From contig JALSIF010000301.1 of the NCBI GenBank assembly GCA_026981635.1, positions 1 to 8,852 on the forward strand: DNA of 8,852 nucleotides. The letters run 5' to 3'. Positions 1 through 8,280 of this stretch are shown here, piece after piece; position 1 is the first letter of the stretch, and the number at the start of each line of letters is the position of its first letter. The translations under genes and the position numbers were made by a program. This DNA comes from a bacterium (lineage in GTDB: Bacteria > 4484-113 > JALSIF01). Under the pieces are notes generated by a model. That model saw only the letters and a list, made by a program, of their open reading frames with translations. It did no database searches and was not told the DNA's origin.

Positions 1-1839
1 CTTATTAACGACATCCTGGACTTCTCCAAGCTGGAGGAGGGGAAGGTGGAGCTGGAGGAGATCCCCTTCAATCTCCACCAGCTCTGCTACCGGACGGTGC
101 GGATCTTCTCCGGCCAGGCCCAGGAGAAGGGGATTGAGCTGATCTGCTCGCTGGGAACTGAGGTCCCCATGGGGGTAAGGGGGGATCCCACCCGGCTCAA
201 GCAGGTGCTCATCAACCTGCTTAGCAACGCCATCAAGTTTACCGACGATGGTGAAGTGCGCCTGGAGGTGAGGGAACTTGAGCGGGTGGAGGGGGAGCGG
301 AGCCGGTTGGAGTTTGCTGTGGTGGATACTGGCATCGGCATCCCCGAGGAGAAGCTGGAGCAGATCTTTGAGACCTTCACCCAGGCCGACAGTTCGGTCA
401 GCCGCCGCTATGGGGGGACCGGACTGGGTCTGGCCATCTGCCGCAAGATCGTTGAGCTGATGGGCGGCAAGCTCATGGTGGAGAGCAAGGAGGGGGAGGG
501 GACCCGCTTCTTCTTCCAGGTTGAGCTCCCCCTGGCCGAGGTGGGGGAGATGGAGATACCGGAGCTACCTCGGGAGGTGGCCGGGATGGTGGTCCTCATC
601 GTGGATGACAACGCCACCAACCGGCGCATCCTGGAGGGCTACCTGGAGAGCTGGGGAATGGAGGAGATCGTCTCCCTGCCCAGCGGGGAAGAGGCCCTGA
701 GCTACCTGGATGGCCTTACCCGGCGGAAAAAGCCGCTGCCCGGGCTGATCATCACCGACGCCAACATGCCGGGACTTTCTGGGCCCGAGTGGATTGAGCG
801 GGCGCGGGCCCAGTTTGACCTCAGCGAGACCAAGGTGCTCCTGCTTACCTCCTCCCTGGCGCTGGAGGCGGAGGAGCGGGAGCGGCTGGGGATCGGTGCG
901 GTGGTGTTTAAGCCGGTGATGCCGGAGCAGCTCTACCGCCACATCCTCAGACTCACCGGCCACCTGGCCGAGGAGGTGGAGGAAGAGGGGGCTGAAGCGG
1001 GGCGGGTGATCCTAAGCTCCAAGGCGCGCATCCTGGTGGTGGAGGACAACCCGGTCAACCTCAGGGTGGTGGCCAGTCTGCTGGGGCAGCTGGGGCTGGA
1101 AAACATCTCCACCGCTGGGGACGGGCGCCAGGCGGTGGAGCTGGTCAAGTCGGGCCGGTTTGACCTGGTACTGATGGATGTGCAGATGCCGAGGATGGAC
1201 GGGTTGGAAGCCACCCGGGAGATCCGCCGCTTTGAGGAGCAGAGCGGCCGGCCCCGGGTTCCCATCGTGGCCCTTACCGCCCACGCCCTGCCGGGTGACC
1301 GGGAGCGCTTCCTCAAGGCGGGGATGGACGACTACCTGACCAAGCCGGTTGACCCCAAAGAGCTGGAGCGCACCCTGGCTCGCTGGCTGTCGGTCGGGGA
1401 GGGAGACCGGCGGAGGGAGACTGGACCCCCGCCAGGGGAGGGAGAGCCGGCCCCGGCCGCTTCCCCTGCGGCCAGCGACAACGGGAAGCGGGCACGGCCG
1501 GTGGTGGAGATGGAGGAGCTTATGCTCCGCATGGGGGGGAACCGGGAGCTCCTGGCCGAGGTGGCCAAGGTCTTTCTGGAGACCTACCCGGAGCAGCTGG
1601 GGAAGCTCGCCCAGGCGGCCAGGGCGGGCCATGGGGAGGAGCTGTGGAAGATCGCCCACTCCCTGAAAGGCTCGCTGGCCAACCTCTCGGCCAAGGAGGC
1701 CAGTGAGCTGGCGGCACAGGTGGAACGGCTGGCCAAGGGGGGGGAGGTGGAAAAGGCGGCGGCGCTGGCCGGCCGGCTGGAAGAGGCGGTCCAGGCGGTG
1801 GCGGAGGTGCTCAGGCGGGAGATGGAGAAGGTGGGCTAG
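1..1839 (+). CDS. Hybrid sensor histidine kinase, BarA/GacS type (5' truncated by window edge)
   Basis: The reading frame is open from base 1, so the start lies outside the window; 612 codons are visible (numbered from base 1). Residues 1-12 ([12 protein letters not shown]) are the end of the HisKA dimerisation helix; the phospho-accepting His is upstream. The HATPase domain spans about 28-178, with N-box N72/N76, G1 box DTGIGI (109-114), F-box near 121-128 and G2 box GGTGLGLA (138-145). Receiver 1 (about 197-320) has acidic D202/D203, phospho-acceptor D253, T283 and K304. Receiver 2 (about 342-455) has E348/D349, D393, T426 and K448. A Pro/Glu/Ala-rich linker (about 457-500) leads to a C-terminal Hpt domain with HSLKGS and phospho-His H553. 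All phosphorelay residues in view are intact, so it should run a His-Asp-His relay from the inner membrane. Sensor domains are not visible. The phosphatase gene starts 6 bases downstream and is the obvious relay target; this pairing is inference. Confidence 0.95.
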
Positions 1840-1845
1840 GCGGGG

Positions 1846-3039
1846 ATGCGGGTACTCATCGCCGACGACGACCTCATCTCTCAGCGGATCCTCTCCTCCG
1901 CCCTGGAGAAGCTGGGCCACCAGGTGGAGAGCGCCCGCGACGGCAGGGAGGCGTGGGAGAAGTTCTGCCAGGACCACTATGAGGTGGTCATCCTGGACTG
2001 GGTGATGCCGGGGATGAAGGGGCCGGAGGTGGCCCGGCGCATCCGGGAGGAGGCGAGGGACTACTATCCCTACGTCATCCTGCTTACCTCCCTGGACGAG
2101 AAGGAGAACCTGATTGAGGGGCTCCAGTCGGGGGCCGACGACTATCTGACCAAGCCGCTGGACCCGGCTGTACTGGAGGCGCGGCTGGCGGTGGCCAGGC
2201 GAATCGTTGAGCTTGAAGAGAGCCTGAAACAGAAGATTGAGGAGCTCTCGGAAAAGAACCGCCGCATCAGCGAGGAGCTCAGGGCCGCCTCCCGCATCCA
2301 GGCGGCCCTGCTGCCCAGCCCGGCGGTGGTGGGGCCGCTGGAGATCGCCTGCTACTACCGGCCCAGCGAGGAGCTGGGCGGGGATCTGCTTAGCTTCTTT
2401 CCCCTCAGCGACCGGCTGCTAATGGCCTACCTGCTGGATGTGAGTGGCCACGGGATGAGGGCCTCCCTGCTCTCGGTCTCCCTGGGCTACATCATCTCCA
2501 GCAAGTCCAAGCAATACTTCAACCGGGACGGCGGCGAGGCGCAGGGTGAGGGTCTGGGGAAGAGGCTGGTTGAGCTGGTGGGGGAGCTAAACGAGGAGCT
2601 TCAGCTCCTTGCCCAGACCGGCCAGTACTTCACCATCGCCCTCTCCCTGGTGGAGCTTGACCGGCTCACCCTCCACCTGGTCTCGGCGGGGCAGCCGCCG
2701 GGCCTCATCGTGAGGGCCGACGGGGGAGAGGAGTGGCTGGACCTACCCGGCTTTCCGGTGGGGCTGGTGGAGGAGGCCGACTATGAGGTGCAGAGCAGAG
2801 CCCTCTCTCCCGGTGAGGTGGTGATCTTCTACTCCGACGGCATCACCGAAGCCCGCTGCGGGGAGGGCAGGCCCTTCGGGCGCGAGGCGCTGCTTGGGGG
2901 AGCAAGGCGGGGGGCCAGGGGGGGAGCCATGCGGGTGCAGGCGGAGATCGTCTCCGACCTCAACGACTGGCTAGGGGACCACCCTCCCCAGGACGACATC
3001 TCCCTGCTGGTGCTGGGGGTTAGGGGAGAGGGGGGCTAG
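1846..3039 (+). CDS. Receiver domain-coiled coil-PP2C (RsbU/SpoIIE-like) serine phosphatase
   Basis: A 397-residue protein. The N-terminal receiver (1-120) has acidic D7-D9, phospho-acceptor D51 (ILDWVMPG), T81 and K103. Residues about 112-150 are rich in Glu/Lys/Leu heptads, a likely coiled coil that passes the phosphorylation signal on. The PP2C/SpoIIE domain (about 151-393) retains the metal-binding acidic residues: D180 in ELGGD, D198 in LLDVSGHG, D331 in FYSDGITEA and D383/D384 in QDDISLLVL. The block after GGD reads LLSF rather than the common YYDF, so the second Asp is absent; the metal-binding Asp remains, so activity is still expected. Family members dephosphorylate anti-sigma-factor antagonists (partner switching); no such partner is in the window. 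The ATG is 6 bases after the kinase stop with only a weak G-rich ribosome site, suggesting translational coupling. It ends convergently on the neighbouring - strand gene, sharing CTAG. Confidence 0.93.
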   Translation: MRVLIADDDLISQRILSSALEKLGHQVESARDGREAWEKFCQDHYEVVILDWVMPGMKGPEVARRIREEARDYYPYVILLTSLDEKENLIEGLQSGADDYLTKPLDPAVLEARLAVARRIVELEESLKQKIEELSEKNRRISEELRAASRIQAALLPSPAVVGPLEIACYYRPSEELGGDLLSFFPLSDRLLMAYLLDVSGHGMRASLLSVSLGYIISSKSKQYFNRDGGEAQGEGLGKRLVELVGELNEELQLLAQTGQYFTIALSLVELDRLTLHLVSAGQPPGLIVRADGGEEWLDLPGFPVGLVEEADYEVQSRALSPGEVVIFYSDGITEARCGEGRPFGREALLGGARRGARGGAMRVQAEIVSDLNDWLGDHPPQDDISLLVLGVRGEGG

Positions 3040-3680
3040 TCCCAGCCCTCACCCCCGTAGGACATCTGCCAGAAGCGCTCCTCGTAGTGGCAGGTGAGGA
3101 CGAAGTTCTCCTCCATCTGGGCAAGCTCCTCTGGATCTTCGCCCGCTGCGATCCGGTCAAGGCTCTCCCCCAGCCAGGCGACGAAGGCGGCAAACTCGGG
3201 GGTGGTCCAGTTGTCTATGAACTCCTGCCAGGGGGACTCCCCTTTAAGGTTCTCCTTTACCCAGCTCCAAGCCTCGTGGTAGGCCCGCTCCAGGGTCCAG
3301 AGGGCGGTAAAGCAGACGGGGAAGCTCTCCCGGTAGGCCAGGCGCAGGAGGTAGTCGGTGTAGGCCCGGCAGGTGGGGAGGGGCTTTGCACCGGCAAGGT
3401 CCACCCCCGCCCGCTCGGCCATTTTGCGGAAAAGCTCAAGTTCGTCCAGCATCACCCCTACCGACCGGCCCAGGCTCTCCATGAACTCCCCCGGCGCGCG
3501 GGCAGAAAGCAGGGCGAGGAAGCGGGTGTAGTCCACCCCGAAGAGGTAGTCCTGGATGAGCCACTGGGCGAAGACCGGCTGGGGGATGGTGAGGGCGGCG
3601 GTCTCCTCCAAGAAGGGGTGGTGGGTGGCCCGGTGCCACAGGGAGGCGTGTTTTTCTAGAAGCTCACTGGTAAAGCCCAT
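3036..3680 (-). CDS. TenA/PqqC-fold family protein, TenA_E-like (lacks the catalytic Cys)
   Basis: A 214-residue all-helical TenA-family protein, the usual length. It has the family QDYLF segment with D44 and a C-terminal EERFWQM motif with E200. Aligned to the upstream paralog by eye, the nucleophilic Cys position is L127 and the Tyr four residues later is E131, within ALWTLERAYHEAW. That Glu-for-Tyr pattern without Cys is what I expect of the TenA_E subfamily, implicated in salvage of thiamin pyrimidine breakdown products such as aminopyrimidine and its N-formyl form. The substrate here is inference. The start is well supported: TGA of the upstream tenA runs straight into GGAGGT, 7 bases before this ATG, so the two are probably translationally coupled. 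The TAG stop overlaps the stop of the convergent phosphatase gene. A heme-oxygenase-like or PqqC-like role is the main alternative. Confidence 0.88.
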   Translation of the reverse strand: MGFTSELLEKHASLWHRATHHPFLEETAALTIPQPVFAQWLIQDYLFGVDYTRFLALLSARAPGEFMESLGRSVGVMLDELELFRKMAERAGVDLAGAKPLPTCRAYTDYLLRLAYRESFPVCFTALWTLERAYHEAWSWVKENLKGESPWQEFIDNWTTPEFAAFVAWLGESLDRIAAGEDPEELAQMEENFVLTCHYEERFWQMSYGGEGWD

Positions 3681-3692
3681 CCTCGCACCTCC
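3681..3692 (-). promoter_or_regulatory. Strong Shine-Dalgarno between the two tenA genes
   Basis: Read on the - strand, the upstream tenA stop TGA is followed at once by GGAGGTGCGAGG and then the ATG of the second tenA. The GGAGGT is a near-perfect ribosome site with 6-7 base spacing. It fixes the downstream start and suggests coupled translation within one transcript. Confidence 0.8.
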
Positions 3693-4385
3693 TCAGGCGA
3701 TCTCCTCCGGCCACCCCTCCAGGGTCCAGCCCATCTGCCAGAACATCCACTCCCAGCGCACCGCCTCGGCAAAGATGGCCGAAAGCCGCTGGTGGCGGGG
3801 GAGGGAGGGGTCGGTCACCCCGGCCTCCTCGGCCAGCCGGTCGGTGAGCTGGCGGAACTCGCCGCACAGCCCCACCCACTCGGGGTCGGAGTACATCTCA
3901 ATCCACTCGTGGTAGGGGCCCGAGGTGGGGCGACCCTCCAGGCCGGCCAGGCGGGTGCCGATCTCGGCGTAGCCCACGAAGCAGGGGGTGAGGCAGACGG
4001 CGATGTCAAGGAGGTCTCCCTGGTTAGCGGTGGCCAGCATGAAGCGGGTGTAGCCCAGGGTGGTGGGGGCGGGGCTGGCCTTTTCCAGCTCCTGCCGGCT
4101 GATGCCGTTTCGCTCGCAGTAGCTTCGGTGGAGCTCCATCTCGGTGTTCAGGGTCACTTCGGTGAGCTTGGCAAAGAATCCCTGGCGCTCCACCGTGTCG
4201 GCCTTGGCCGAGCCCAGCGCCAGCACCCGGCAGTAGTCAATCAGGAAGAGGTAATCCTGAATCAGGTAGTGGCGGAACTTCTCCTCCTCCAGGGTGCCGG
4301 CGGCGAGGGCCTCCACGAAGGGGTGGTGGGCCGCCCGCCGCCACAGCTCCCGGTGGGCTGCGATGAGCTGGTCGGTCAGTCCCAT
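3693..4385 (-). CDS. tenA: TenA aminopyrimidine aminohydrolase / thiaminase II (TenA_C type)
   Basis: A 230-residue protein whose catalytic residues fall at or near the Bacillus subtilis TenA positions: D44 in QDYLF, Y112, the nucleophile C135 in LTPCFVGY, Y139, Y165 near the Y163 position, and the C-terminal Glu at E212 in WEWMFWQM. This matches the Cys-containing subclass, which hydrolyses 4-amino-5-aminomethyl-2-methylpyrimidine to HMP during thiamin salvage in the cytoplasm and can cleave thiamin. No other thiamin gene is in the window and no TPP riboswitch is seen upstream. It starts 37 bases after the stop of the propeller lipoprotein gene and ends 12 bases before the second tenA, so one transcript could cover all three. 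The ribosome site is weak (GGAA close to the ATG). Subfamily assignment is firm; physiological substrate is inferred. Confidence 0.93.
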   Translation of the reverse strand: MGLTDQLIAAHRELWRRAAHHPFVEALAAGTLEEEKFRHYLIQDYLFLIDYCRVLALGSAKADTVERQGFFAKLTEVTLNTEMELHRSYCERNGISRQELEKASPAPTTLGYTRFMLATANQGDLLDIAVCLTPCFVGYAEIGTRLAGLEGRPTSGPYHEWIEMYSDPEWVGLCGEFRQLTDRLAEEAGVTDPSLPRHQRLSAIFAEAVRWEWMFWQMGWTLEGWPEEIA

Positions 4386-4422: not shown

Positions 4423-6216
4423 TCACTCCTGGATGGCGAACTTCACCTTGCTGTCGGTCAGGGTGTGGTAGGCGATGGCGATCTTGCCGTTTATGACTGC
4501 AATGGAGGAGAAGGGGGAGGCAATGGTGTCATCTGTGTCCACCATCTGGGCCAGCCAGCTGCCCTGGCCGTTTGCTTGGGTTGCGCGGGCAAGTTTGATG
4601 CCCTTGACCAGCTGGTTGTCCTGGGTCCCGCCACCGAAGAAGGAGACCACCGGCTTGTTGTCCACTACCGTCATGTCCAGACCGCTGGGGAAGGTGAAGC
4701 CGTCCGATTCGTCGGCCAGTACCAGATCCCAGCTTCCCAGGCCGTCGGACTGGGAGCTGTAGGCATAGACCAAGCCTACCCCCAGTGCCTTGGTGTAGAT
4801 AACGGCGGGCTTGTTGTCTACCACGTAGAGCTTGATGGAACCTCCTGCCTCTATGGTTTGGGTGACCTCCTGGGTCTGCCAGCTACCTGTGCCGTCGGAC
4901 TGGGAGTTGAGGGCGAAGAAGACCTGGCCGTTCTTGGTGTATGCTACCGCTGGCTTGCCCTGCACCTCGGCGATGGAGCAGAGGTCAGAGCCAGCCTGAC
5001 CGGCGCCGGTGGTGACGGTAGAGATGTTCCAGCTGCCCAGGCCATCGGTGGTGGTGCTTACTGCGACTCTGAACTCCTCCTGGCCGATCCGGTAGCAGAT
5101 GGCAGGCTTGCCCCCCACCACGGTTAGCTCACTTACCATTCCGGCTATCTCCTGGTTGGGGGGGGCCACCGTTACCACATCCCACTGGCCCTGGCCGTCG
5201 GCCTGGCGGTTGATGGCGTACATCAGGGTGGTCCGGTTGGAGCCATCAAAGAAACTTACCGCCGGTCGCCCGTCCACGATGGCGAGGGAGGTGGTCCCTC
5301 CCACCGAGTCGGAGGCAAAGATGGACCCGATCTGCCAGCTCCCGGAACCGTCGGGCTGGGTGTTGATGGCGAAGTGGACCTCCACCGCCTGATCGGGCGG
5401 GTTGTTCTCGTTTAGGAAGTAGTAGGTCATGGCAGGGCGGCCGTCCACCTCCTTGAGGGATACGCCCGCCGTCCCTCCGATCTCTCCCTGGGTCTCCACC
5501 ACCTGGATGTTGAAGTTGAGCTGGCTCCCACCACCACCGCCACCGCTTATCAGGATGGGAACCGGGTCGGCTGGGTCCACGAAGGGGGTGCCAGCCACCT
5601 CTCCGGCGGCCAGAAAGACCTCCTCGTGGGCGGGGGCTGAGAGGTCCACCGGCACGGCGATGGGCAGGTAGCCGCTCTGGGTGGGCTGGGCAGCACTGTC
5701 AATCACATCGCTCAGGGGGTAGCTTCCCAGCAGGGGGGCGGTGGCGGGGTCAAAGTCGGCCTGGTACTGGTAGCGGCGGATCTCGGTTACCGAGGTGCCG
5801 AAGGCGGCCACCAGCAGGTTCACGTCGGCGAAGTTGACCTCGCCGTCGCCGTTGAAGTCGTGGGCCTGCTTGACGGTGGAGCCGTCTACCGACTGGCCGA
5901 AGGTGGCCACCAGGCCGTTTACATCGGCAAAGCTCACCGTCCCGTCGGCGTTGTTGTCACCGATGAGGCGAACCTCGGCGTGAACCAGACTGGCCGAGGT
6001 GTCCAGAGCGCCCTGGGGGTTTTGGGGGTCGGCGGGGTTGAGCTGCAGGATGGGCTGGCTTCCCTGGGCGGGAAGCTGGGCGATGGACCTGGTGAGGGCG
6101 GGGGGAGGGGAAGTCGGGCTGTCACCCTGCCGCCCGCCGCAGGCGGCAGATAGGCCAGCAACCATCCCAACGGCTAGAAGCAGCTGGACGAAGACAGAGG
6201 GTCTTATCCTGGACAT
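4423..6216 (-). CDS. Dockerin-like, seven-bladed beta-propeller lipoprotein (paralog A)
   Basis: A 597-residue exported protein of unknown function. I chose ATG 6216 because GGAGG lies 5 bases upstream and the signal peptide then begins naturally (MSRIRP, hydrophobic 8-22). A lipobox-like LSAAC gives C26 as a putative lipidated Cys, though Ser at -3 is atypical. A Pro/Ser-rich tether follows. Residues 85-140 hold two calcium-type EF loops, D87-D98 and D120-D131 (DxNxDGxV..xxD), as in type I dockerins. Residues about 145-222 form a conserved segment I do not recognise, then a Gly6 linker (225-230). Residues about 236-597 carry seven repeats at 48-57 residue spacing, each with (D/G)G(R/K)PA (258, 315, 368, 420, 467, 519, 576) and, in six, a DGxGSW-like motif (289, 340, 391, 441, 491, 549). 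The seventh outer strand is probably supplied by NFNIQVVE at 234-241. No catalytic residues are apparent; binding or scaffolding is plausible but unproven. Confidence 0.9.
   Translation of the reverse strand: MSRIRPSVFVQLLLAVGMVAGLSAACGGRQGDSPTSPPPALTRSIAQLPAQGSQPILQLNPADPQNPQGALDTSASLVHAEVRLIGDNNADGTVSFADVNGLVATFGQSVDGSTVKQAHDFNGDGEVNFADVNLLVAAFGTSVTEIRRYQYQADFDPATAPLLGSYPLSDVIDSAAQPTQSGYLPIAVPVDLSAPAHEEVFLAAGEVAGTPFVDPADPVPILISGGGGGGSQLNFNIQVVETQGEIGGTAGVSLKEVDGRPAMTYYFLNENNPPDQAVEVHFAINTQPDGSGSWQIGSIFASDSVGGTTSLAIVDGRPAVSFFDGSNRTTLMYAINRQADGQGQWDVVTVAPPNQEIAGMVSELTVVGGKPAICYRIGQEEFRVAVSTTTDGLGSWNISTVTTGAGQAGSDLCSIAEVQGKPAVAYTKNGQVFFALNSQSDGTGSWQTQEVTQTIEAGGSIKLYVVDNKPAVIYTKALGVGLVYAYSSQSDGLGSWDLVLADESDGFTFPSGLDMTVVDNKPVVSFFGGGTQDNQLVKGIKLARATQANGQGSWLAQMVDTDDTIASPFSSIAVINGKIAIAYHTLTDSKVKFAIQE
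5644..5975 (-). repeat. Near-identical duplicated segment, copy in paralog A
   Basis: This covers the dockerin-like module and the front of the middle segment. Aligned by eye with 7696-8030 it has about ten scattered substitutions plus one 3-base indel with local changes, including long runs without any synonymous difference. Flanking coding sequence on both sides is far more divergent. Confidence 0.85.
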
Positions 6217-6221
6217 CCCTT

Positions 6222-6228
6222 CCTCCTT
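6222..6228 (-). promoter_or_regulatory. Ribosome binding site deciding the start of paralog A
   Basis: On the - strand AAGGAGG lies 5 bases before ATG 6216. An ATG 39 bases further upstream is in frame, but it would put a hydrophilic, Lys/Glu-containing stretch ahead of the signal peptide and would place this ribosome site inside the gene. Confidence 0.8.
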
Positions 6229-6247
6229 TTTTGACAGGTTATTTGAC

Positions 6248-6266
6248 CCGAGCACAACCAGCTCGG
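6248..6266 (-). repeat. Inverted repeat, 6-bp arms
   Basis: CCGAGC (6248-6253) and GCTCGG (6261-6266) are perfect inverted arms around a 7-base loop. It lies 22 bases upstream of the ribosome site of paralog A. No T-run follows on either strand, so it is not a typical terminator. Confidence 0.55.
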
Positions 6267-6268
6267 AG

Positions 6269-6297
6269 AAAAGCGGCCGTCCTTTCGGGTGGCCGCT
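6269..6297 (-). terminator. Possible attenuator or weak terminator hairpin ahead of paralog A
   Basis: Arms AGCGGCC (6272-6278) and GGCCGCT (6291-6297) are perfectly complementary. On the - strand the inner part can close on a GAAA tetraloop, and the stem runs into four T residues. The U-run is short and the gene start is about 50 bases further on, so an attenuator or leader stem is as likely as a true terminator. Confidence 0.35.
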
Positions 6298-6316
6298 GGG
6301 AGATAGCTTGGCTCCC
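6298..6316 (-). repeat. Inverted repeat, 5-bp arms, abutting the attenuator-like hairpin
   Basis: GGGAG (6298-6302) and CTCCC (6312-6316) pair around a 9-base loop. The hairpin ends exactly where the 6272-6297 hairpin begins, so in RNA the two could stack coaxially. Confidence 0.4.
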
Positions 6317-6373
6317 CTACCGCTCTACCTTCCTCTCTGGCAAGGACAAGCGCAGCAGAAAGTAGGAAGAGGT

Positions 6374-6394
6374 GGGAAGACAAGTTATCTCCCC
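6374..6394 (-). repeat. Inverted repeat, 7-bp arms (one G-U pair in - strand RNA)
   Basis: In the - strand transcript, GGGGAGA (complement of 6388-6394) pairs with UCUUCCC (complement of 6374-6380) around a 7-base loop. The single non-Watson-Crick pair is G-U on the - strand but A-C on the + strand, which favours an RNA read from the - strand. Confidence 0.4.
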
Positions 6395-6398
6395 GAAA

Positions 6399-6463
6399 GC
6401 AGTTTAGCACGGTGGAACCGGTGGGCATACAGCAAGCCCCTGCCCCCGGTTCCGGCAGTTTAG
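6399..6463. repeat. Pair of 9-bp direct repeats flanking a long hairpin
   Basis: GCAGTTTAG occurs at 6399-6407 and again at 6455-6463. Each copy is followed by ACGG, after one extra base in the first copy. The copies are 56 bp apart and bracket the hairpin at 6414-6453. No other match was noticed in the window. Confidence 0.5.
6414..6453. repeat. Long GC-rich inverted repeat (13 bp with one bulge)
   Basis: GGAACCGG (6414-6421) pairs with CCGGTTCC (6446-6453), and after a single bulged T, GGGCA (6423-6427) pairs with TGCCC (6441-6445), leaving a 13-base loop. It begins 42 bases after the stop of paralog B. No T-run follows on either strand, so a Rho-independent terminator is doubtful; a 3'-end stabilising stem or protein site is possible. 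Confidence 0.6.
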
Positions 6464-6495
6464 ACGGCTCAGCCGGAGTCTCTTCTTTTGTCCGC

Positions 6496-8280
6496 CTACT
6501 GACCGAGGGCGAACCAGAGCTCTCCGGTCTGGAGCTTGTGGTAGACGATGCCCACCTGGCCGTTTACCTCGGCGATGGAGGTGCGGGGGTACATTTGGCC
6601 CTGCTTGTCCACCGCCACCCCACTCCAGCCGGTGAGTCCGTCGCTGGATGAGCTCCTTGCCAGGCGGATGCCAGAGGTAATGTCATCTCCCGGGCCAGCT
6701 CCCCAGAAGCTTACCGCCGGCCGTCCTCCGATCAGGGTGATGGCAACACCGGTAACTGGCTCAAAGTTTCCGCCACTGTCGTCGGCGGTGATGATCTGCC
6801 AGCTCCCCGAGCCGTCGGTAAGGTCGCTTAGGGCGTAGCCCAGAGAGGGAGGGGTGAGTATCTGGTAGGCGATGGCCGGCCTGCCGTCTGCGGTGACCAC
6901 CATGTCAAGGTAGGGGCCGGCAGTGAGGTCGCTGGTGAGCTGGTAGCTCTGCCAGGTGCCGGTGCCGTCGGGCTGGTCGTTGATGGCGAAGTAGAGGTTG
7001 GCCCCCTTGGTGTAGGCGACGGCGGGCCGGCCCTCTACTTCGGCGATGGCGCACCAACCTCCTATCCCCACGCCGGAGGGAGCGGTGTCCACGGTGCTGA
7101 TGTTCCAGCTGTCCAGCCCATCGGCGGTGGTGCTTACTGCTGCGCGGATCTCGCTGTTTGAACCCACCGAGTAGCAGACGGCCGGCTTGCCACCTACCGT
7201 GGTGAGGTCGCTGGTCATGCCGATGGCCGTCTCGGGGTCCTGGTCTACGGTTACCACCGTCCAGCTTCCCTGGCCGTCGGCCTGGGAGTTGAGGGCGTAG
7301 TGGAGGGCCGGATTGGTGCCGTTGAAGAAGGTGACCGCCGGCCTGCCATCCACCTCCGCCAGGGAAGTAACCAGCCCCACCGAGCCCGAACTGAAGATGG
7401 TCCCGATCTGCCAGCCGCCAGAGCCGTCGGGGTTGCTGCTGATGGCAAAGCGCACCTGGATAATGCTGTCGCCGGGAACTCCGGTGTTGTAGTAGTAGGC
7501 GATGGCGGGACGGCCATCAATCACTGCCAAGGTGGCGCCGGCAGTCCCTCCGGTCACCGGCGAGGCATCCACCACCTGGCGGTTGAAGCCCAGCGGGGCG
7601 AGGCTGATGGGGACCGGTGTGGCGGGGTCCAGGAAGGGCTCGCCCGCCACCTCGCCGGCGGCGATGAAGACCTCCTGGTGGGGACCCATGCTGGTGTCCA
7701 CCGGCACGGCGATGGGCAGGTAGCCGCTCTGGGTGGGCTGGGCGGCGCTGTCCATCACATCGCTCAGGGGGTAGCTTCCCAGCAGGGGGGCGGTGGTGGG
7801 GTCAAAGTCGGGGCCGTCATACTGGTAGCGGCGGATCTCGGTTACCGAGGTGCCGAAGGCGGCCACCAGCAGGTTCACGTCGGCGAAGTTGACCTCGCCG
7901 TCGCCGTTGAAGTCGTGGGCTTGCTTGACGGTGGAGCCGTCTACCGGCAGGCCGAAGGTGGATACCAGGCCGTTTACATCGGCAAAGCTCACCGTCCCGT
8001 CGGCGTTGTTGTCACCGATGAGGCGAACCTCCATGCGCACCACACCGGCGGTGGGGTCAAAGGCCCCCTGGGGATTGGAGGGGTCAACCGGGTTTAGGGT
8101 AAGGATGGGCCTACCCCCCTGGGCGGGAAGCTGGGCGGTACCTTTTGAGGCCGACGCCAAGTCGGGCTGGGGGAGATGTTCTCCCCGGCTTGGCAACCGC
8201 TCGGCGCGGCAGGAAGAAAGCCCCGTCAAGACCGCAAGGAGAAGTAGAGTCCAGTTCCCGAGCTTGCCGGAAAACCCCAT
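6496..8280 (-). CDS. Dockerin-like, seven-bladed beta-propeller lipoprotein (paralog B)
   Basis: A 594-residue paralog of the downstream gene with the same architecture. The ATG at 8280 follows GGGAGG by 9 bases. The signal peptide (hydrophobic 11-22) ends in a canonical lipobox LSSC, giving C24. Dockerin-like EF loops are D90-D101 and D123-D134. The unrecognised segment (about 148-225) is almost identical to that of paralog A, but the Gly6 linker is absent. Seven propeller repeats carry (D/G/E)G(R/K)PA-like motifs at 255, 311, 363, 416, 465, 518 and a degenerate one at 573. DGxGxW-like motifs occur at 285, 335, 387, 438, 489 and 547. QVVDAS near 235-240 probably closes the ring. Identity to paralog A is very high in the dockerin and middle segments and much lower in the signal peptide and propeller. 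Exported and probably membrane-anchored; ligand unknown. It lies 84 bp after acnA, whose metabolic role gives no clear functional hint. Confidence 0.9.
   Translation of the reverse strand: MGFSGKLGNWTLLLLAVLTGLSSCRAERLPSRGEHLPQPDLASASKGTAQLPAQGGRPILTLNPVDPSNPQGAFDPTAGVVRMEVRLIGDNNADGTVSFADVNGLVSTFGLPVDGSTVKQAHDFNGDGEVNFADVNLLVAAFGTSVTEIRRYQYDGPDFDPTTAPLLGSYPLSDVMDSAAQPTQSGYLPIAVPVDTSMGPHQEVFIAAGEVAGEPFLDPATPVPISLAPLGFNRQVVDASPVTGGTAGATLAVIDGRPAIAYYYNTGVPGDSIIQVRFAISSNPDGSGGWQIGTIFSSGSVGLVTSLAEVDGRPAVTFFNGTNPALHYALNSQADGQGSWTVVTVDQDPETAIGMTSDLTTVGGKPAVCYSVGSNSEIRAAVSTTADGLDSWNISTVDTAPSGVGIGGWCAIAEVEGRPAVAYTKGANLYFAINDQPDGTGTWQSYQLTSDLTAGPYLDMVVTADGRPAIAYQILTPPSLGYALSDLTDGSGSWQIITADDSGGNFEPVTGVAITLIGGRPAVSFWGAGPGDDITSGIRLARSSSSDGLTGWSGVAVDKQGQMYPRTSIAEVNGQVGIVYHKLQTGELWFALGQ
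7696..8030 (-). repeat. Near-identical duplicated segment, copy in paralog B
   Basis: Partner of 5644-5975, in direct orientation about 2.05 kb away. It carries one extra codon (YDGPDF against YQADF in protein). Direct repeats this long and similar could allow recombination that fuses the two genes. Confidence 0.85.

Follow-up and report, generated by a model that had tools for sequence, protein, structure and literature searches.

Tandem lipoproteins with a lectin-like propeller and a probably nested dockerin in an uncultured bacterium

Dockerins are known mostly as terminal plugs. In the X-module-dockerin pair, a neighboring Ig-like domain stabilizes the dockerin and raises the rupture force (PMC4266597). 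Here, we consider an 8852-nucleotide window (contig JALSIF010000301.1 of assembly GCA_026981635.1; GTDB lineage 4484-113, JALSIF01) that is contig C301 of its own draft genome (1.75 Mb, 85% complete; below, the source genome). Two adjacent tandem genes on its minus strand, gene 1 (W1) and gene 2 (W2), encode lipoproteins that are 58%–59% identical and carry a dockerin near the lipid anchor. As in the pairs of Clostridium thermocellum CipA (2b59) and Ruminococcus flavefaciens CttA (PMC4266597), this dockerin is predicted to touch an Ig-like β-sandwich that may stabilize it, and the surface adhesion role of CttA resembles the role proposed below. In those pairs the modules are consecutive, whereas here the dockerin is probably nested and belongs to a lipoprotein, and the sampled proteins gave no sign of a cellulosome.

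Large noncellulosomal cohesin/dockerin repertoires occur in anaerobic methanotrophic (ANME) archaea and their bacterial partners, which are noncellulolytic, as is probably the case here, and in which cohesins and dockerins are sometimes adjacent and beside adhesin-like domains, again as here (PMC9012536, PMC10553843). The available portions of those accounts describe no nested dockerin, whereas the class studied here has ∼500 copies of one FN3-framed module. By analogy, the X-module-dockerin pair may be the nearest mechanical precedent and the ANME consortia the nearest ecological one. A further comparison is the type II dockerin of Bacteroides cellulosolvens Cel48 (2y3n; PMC8063739), which has two similar calcium repeats, as do W1 and W2, and is C-terminal on an enzyme rather than nested.

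We propose, with a probability of about 0.6, that W1 and W2 are lipid-anchored receptors of a putative noncellulosomal cohesin-dockerin assembly on the cell envelope. Each protein combines a lipobox, a type I dockerin whose two calcium loops are intact, and a lectin-like seven-bladed propeller, and Pfam and NCBIfam scans of both found no catalytic domain. A lipobox, a dockerin-like module, and a seven-bladed propeller had been described in an initial annotation made from the sequence alone, and that description holds for the tandem pair, the lipoboxes, the dockerin, the propeller, and the lack of a catalytic domain. What changes is the layout around the dockerin.

The dockerin and its probable place in an FN3/Ig-like sandwich

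The dockerin occupies residues 98–153 of W1 (5797–5964, minus strand, as for all features of the pair) and residues 88–143 of W2 (7852–8019). With 24.5 bits in W1 and 24.2 bits in W2, it exceeds the curated cut-off (22.9) of the type I dockerin family PF00404. The EF loops are canonical in the two proteins (DNNADGTVSFAD, DFNGDGEVNFAD; pattern DxNxDGxxxxxD), lying at 5923–5958 and 5824–5859 in W1 (beginning at residues 100 and 133) and at 7978–8013 and 7879–7914 in W2 (residues 90 and 123). In an AlphaFold2 (AF2) model of the W1 module, a helix follows each calcium loop, and VIA-align superimposes the modeled dockerin on 2y3n_B with Z 9.8 and a root-mean-square deviation (rmsd) of 1.3; 2y3n is also the nearest solved dockerin by sequence (E 1.2e-6).

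The evidence for nesting is strongest outside the window. Our class set comprises ten genomes, the source genome and nine class mates. In the class mates, the dockerin is preceded by the motif ‘..VTDLxxxxxxxxxLxWxYxN’ and followed by ‘xxGYNVYRS...YxVxPxDxxGxxGxxS’, and the strand-B ‘LxW’ and strand-C ‘GYNVY’ flank it in nearly every class copy. After in silico removal of the dockerin, 25 flank pairs were combined into a profile, which in the PDB matched FN3 domains of fibronectin, FN3con, PTPRF, contactin, and chitinase A1 (best E 1e-7), in alignments that run unbroken across the excision junction, which falls in the B-C loop. Pfam fn3 was found in three of the 25 single excised sequences (best E 0.002). 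When the halves were swapped as a control, the fibronectin matches disappeared and only titin and FN3con remained below E 0.1. Titin, the best hit of this control, consists of FN3 domains in tandem, and in such an array strands F-G of one domain do come before A-B of the next. It is clear from sequence that the dockerin is nested in an FN3 domain in the nine class mates. In the literature that we searched, no paper reports an FN3 domain with a dockerin insertion.

For the window proteins, AF2 modeling of the W1 module used an alignment of 35 rows, in which W1 and W2 only cover the flanks. The model has a predicted local distance difference test score (pLDDT) of 76.5 and a predicted template modeling score (pTM) of 0.71, and places strands A and B before the dockerin helices and strands C to G after them. 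The first half of the predicted sandwich spans residues 70–97 of W1 (5965–6048; strands at 16–20 and 36–43 in module model numbering) and the second half residues 154–236 (5548–5796; strands at 100–110, 121–126, 142–148, 156–166, 169–172, and 178–182). The corresponding parts of W2, placed by alignment to W1, are residues 60–87 (8020–8103) and 144–227 (7600–7851). VIA-align matches the nondockerin remainder of the W1 module, spanning the insertion, with Ig and FN3 domains (Z 6–6.7). The initial annotation had given the order as lipobox, dockerin, an uncharacterized segment, and propeller. The parts stand, and the prediction makes the uncharacterized segment the second half of one FN3/Ig-like sandwich whose first half is the stretch before the dockerin, so that the dockerin would occupy the B-C loop. 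Overall, we regard nesting as probable for W1 and W2, and for the class as well supported.

The same unit, dockerin plus both flanks, recurs in the source genome in ∼9 other lipoproteins with different C termini, and the intact source-genome and class module profiles stay collinear in their alignment beyond the dockerin. Four source-genome modules, on contigs C138, C20, C310, and C83, score above shuffled sequences when their flanks are compared with the class FN3 profile.

Lipid anchors, propellers, and history of the gene pair

The open reading frame of W1 (4423–6216) most likely starts at the ATG at 6216 rather than at a GTG at 6255 because a strong Shine-Dalgarno sequence (AAGGAGG) lies just upstream; W1 residue numbers given here run from the GTG. 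The paralogous W2 (6496–8280) has GGGAGGA ahead of its ATG. Read from the sequence, signal peptide and lipobox lie at 6139–6216 in W1 (LSAA-C39) and at 8209–8280 in W2 (GLSS-C24). A lipobox cysteine follows the signal peptide in both, and the W1 motif fits the permissive lipobox only.

The propeller spans residues 246–610 of W1 (4426–5520) and, by alignment, residues 231–594 of W2 (6499–7590). In the AF2 model, its seven blade repeats close (pLDDT mostly 75–95), and the predicted structures contain both the EF loops and a closed propeller. Full-length modeling with only the two paralogs in the alignment left residues 1–245 unresolved. The best structural match of the W1 propeller is PLL4 (8q82_A; Z 32.2, rmsd 2.3 over 309 residues), and the next group of neighbors after the PLL/PHL lectins scores ∼27. 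We know of no dockerin or lipid anchor in PLL/PHL lectins. These lectins of Photorhabdus (8q82, 5mxg; PMC6943638) have the closest propeller fold (Z 30–32, rmsd ∼2.4), with 12%–14% identity. Matches to Pfam VirK and DUF3558 and to a PDB pantothenate kinase were rejected as weak chance matches. Repeats resembling the propeller also occur near residues 2100–2400 of a 3625-amino-acid open frame with a prepilin-like N terminus (locus L044, 5480–16,354, contig C181 of the source genome).

The history of the pair differs along its length. Synonymous divergence (pS) between W1 and W2 is 0.045–0.086 in a tract covering residues 94–203 of W1 (5647–5976) and 84–194 of W2 (7699–8031), and ∼0.5 outside it. 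Because synonymous divergence is low in the tract and high elsewhere, the sequences indicate that recent gene conversion homogenized the dockerin together with the strands that come first after it. A general tendency to such conversion in the class was rejected, since six other neighboring pairs show no comparable tract and have saturated synonymous sites along their whole length.

Elsewhere in the window, two tandem TenA/thiaminase-II-like paralogs lie at 3036–4385 on the minus strand, of which that at 3693–4385 is above the NCBIfam salvage TenA cut-off and the second is below it. On the plus strand, positions 1–3039 encode a hybrid histidine kinase that includes receiver and Hpt-like parts; after it comes a response regulator whose phosphatase output is RssB/RsbU-like.

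Candidate cohesin partners, rival explanations, and distribution

The initial annotation suggested that the dockerin might recruit a cohesin encoded elsewhere in the genome, and this suggestion has gained support. We took a census of 48 modules from two class genomes; it was picked by module profile, and therefore shows module completeness (41 of the 48 span the whole profile) and not how frequent nesting is among class dockerins. A divergent cohesin lies directly upstream of 16 of these modules. Of 17 upstream domains, 10 match PF00963 with E values of at most 0.1, the lowest being 3.5e-9, and a profile of the domain matches PDB scaffoldin cohesins (E 8e-5). Cohesins occur in all ten class genomes and frequently share a protein with this dockerin module. 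In the source genome, a cohesin profile trained without its sequences gives 70 to 21 bits for candidates on contigs C310, C20, C290, and C124, with shuffles below 4; one on C142 was not separated from shuffles. Because cohesins stand upstream in a third of the census modules and are present in ten of ten genomes, a candidate partner exists, also in the source genome. In many class members, the position between lipobox and nested module is occupied not by a cohesin but by a conserved helical segment, ‘ALAELxxLxxPEGVDxxLFxELKDALxEAL’ (seen at L132, L165, L166, L185, L217, L226, and L236).

In the mechanism that we propose, the dockerin replaces the B-C loop and the sandwich holds both its ends like a frame, which may stabilize it under load as the Ig-like X-module does in cellulosomal X-dockerin pairs. 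Cohesins on other lipoproteins of the same cell would bind the nested dockerin, and propellers, PKD domains, and Ig domains would thereby be joined into a calcium-dependent coat or mesh, with the propeller perhaps binding a glycan or another ligand at the surface. In the 20 class proteins that were sampled, the C-terminal parts comprise PKD, Ig-like, PQQ, and other propeller domains, or are unassigned. More tentatively, and with odds that we would put below even, hundreds of lipid-anchored proteins, held to one another by FN3-nested dockerins and divergent cohesins, may make up the outer surface throughout this small class, as a calcium-dependent noncellulosomal mesh with a topologically enclosed, force-resistant plug.

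Several observations weigh against the receptor proposal. The Z of 6–6.7 is modest and common to many Ig-like folds, the degenerate flanks of W1 and W2 do not score above shuffled sequences against the class FN3 profile, and profile-profile comparison of excised source-genome and class flanks gives a probability of only 31%, though in the right register. The sandwich of W1 and W2 rests on the AF2 model and on homology to the modules on C138, C20, C310, and C83. W1 and W2 themselves carry no cohesin, no cohesin of the source genome reaches the Pfam cut-off, and the C-terminal parts come from a sample of 20 proteins rather than a full survey. The cohesin scores below the Pfam cut-off would suit an explanation in which the dockerin no longer has a partner and serves only as a calcium-stabilized structural insert that stiffens the stalk between lipid anchor and propeller, as would the facts that the nested fold would be stable alone and that 32 of the 48 census modules are in proteins without a cohesin. 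We consider this stalk role, which the initial annotation also raised, a serious but less likely alternative, given that cohesins have expanded in parallel in all ten genomes and that the dockerin is the slowest-changing protein part in five of the six other neighboring paralog pairs (nonsynonymous divergence [pN] 0.18–0.29 in those five, versus ∼0.5 in most other parts).

The poor scores of the W1 and W2 flanks, and a model whose flanks rest on two sequences, could instead mean that nothing is nested, with dockerin and Ig-like domain consecutive and the preceding stretch a linker. This is improbable in our view, because in the AF2 model strands before and after the dockerin join in a single sandwich, and in the class the two strand motifs flank the dockerin and its excision restores the FN3 profile match. 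We attach even less weight to a cellulosome-like scaffold that gathers degradative enzymes. Cohesins and dockerins are present, and classical C-terminal dockerins do occur in the class, for example on two adjacent subtilases of the source genome (locus L040, 2365–5605, contig C251), which are possible clients of the same cohesins. Against a degradative scaffold, an enzyme domain was found in none of the 20 sampled nested-dockerin proteins, nor in W1 or W2, a dockerin-bearing glycoside hydrolase in none of the same 20, and a multicohesin scaffoldin in none of the proteins examined.

The receptor proposal concerns a module that is abundant within the class and scarce beyond it. The full module profile gives ∼506 matches at E 1e-12 or better across all ten genomes, with the highest count (99) in a genome of 4.0 Mb. 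In one class genome (L277; genome G007, contig C54, 245.5–256 kb), five nested-dockerin genes stand in tandem, and two of the five encode two modules apiece. The source genome is an outlier: The genome-wide search for paralogs that the initial annotation called for found ∼10 modules by the genome's own profile, only two of which pass the class profile. In 375 genomes of other families, with at most nine candidates scored per genome, the full-length module was not found, and the one weak match covers the dockerin alone. Dockerins outside the class are C-terminal in 135 of 148 cases, and have nested-like flanks in one of 152. A scan of contigs of other genomes with the source-genome module recovered mostly C-terminal dockerins of Phycisphaerae and Latescibacterota, and a scan of viral contigs gave no match.

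At E 0.001, PF00404 has 125 matches in the class genomes, about a quarter of the modules, and nested dockerins are thus largely missed by current dockerin annotation. The ∼500 modules would add a large, poorly annotated noncellulosomal cohesin-dockerin repertoire. If true, the FN3-framed dockerin would be a new way to build a dockerin plug and a natural experiment on mechanical stabilization, and its presence across the class offers a hypothesis for how these uncultured bacteria may organize their surface.

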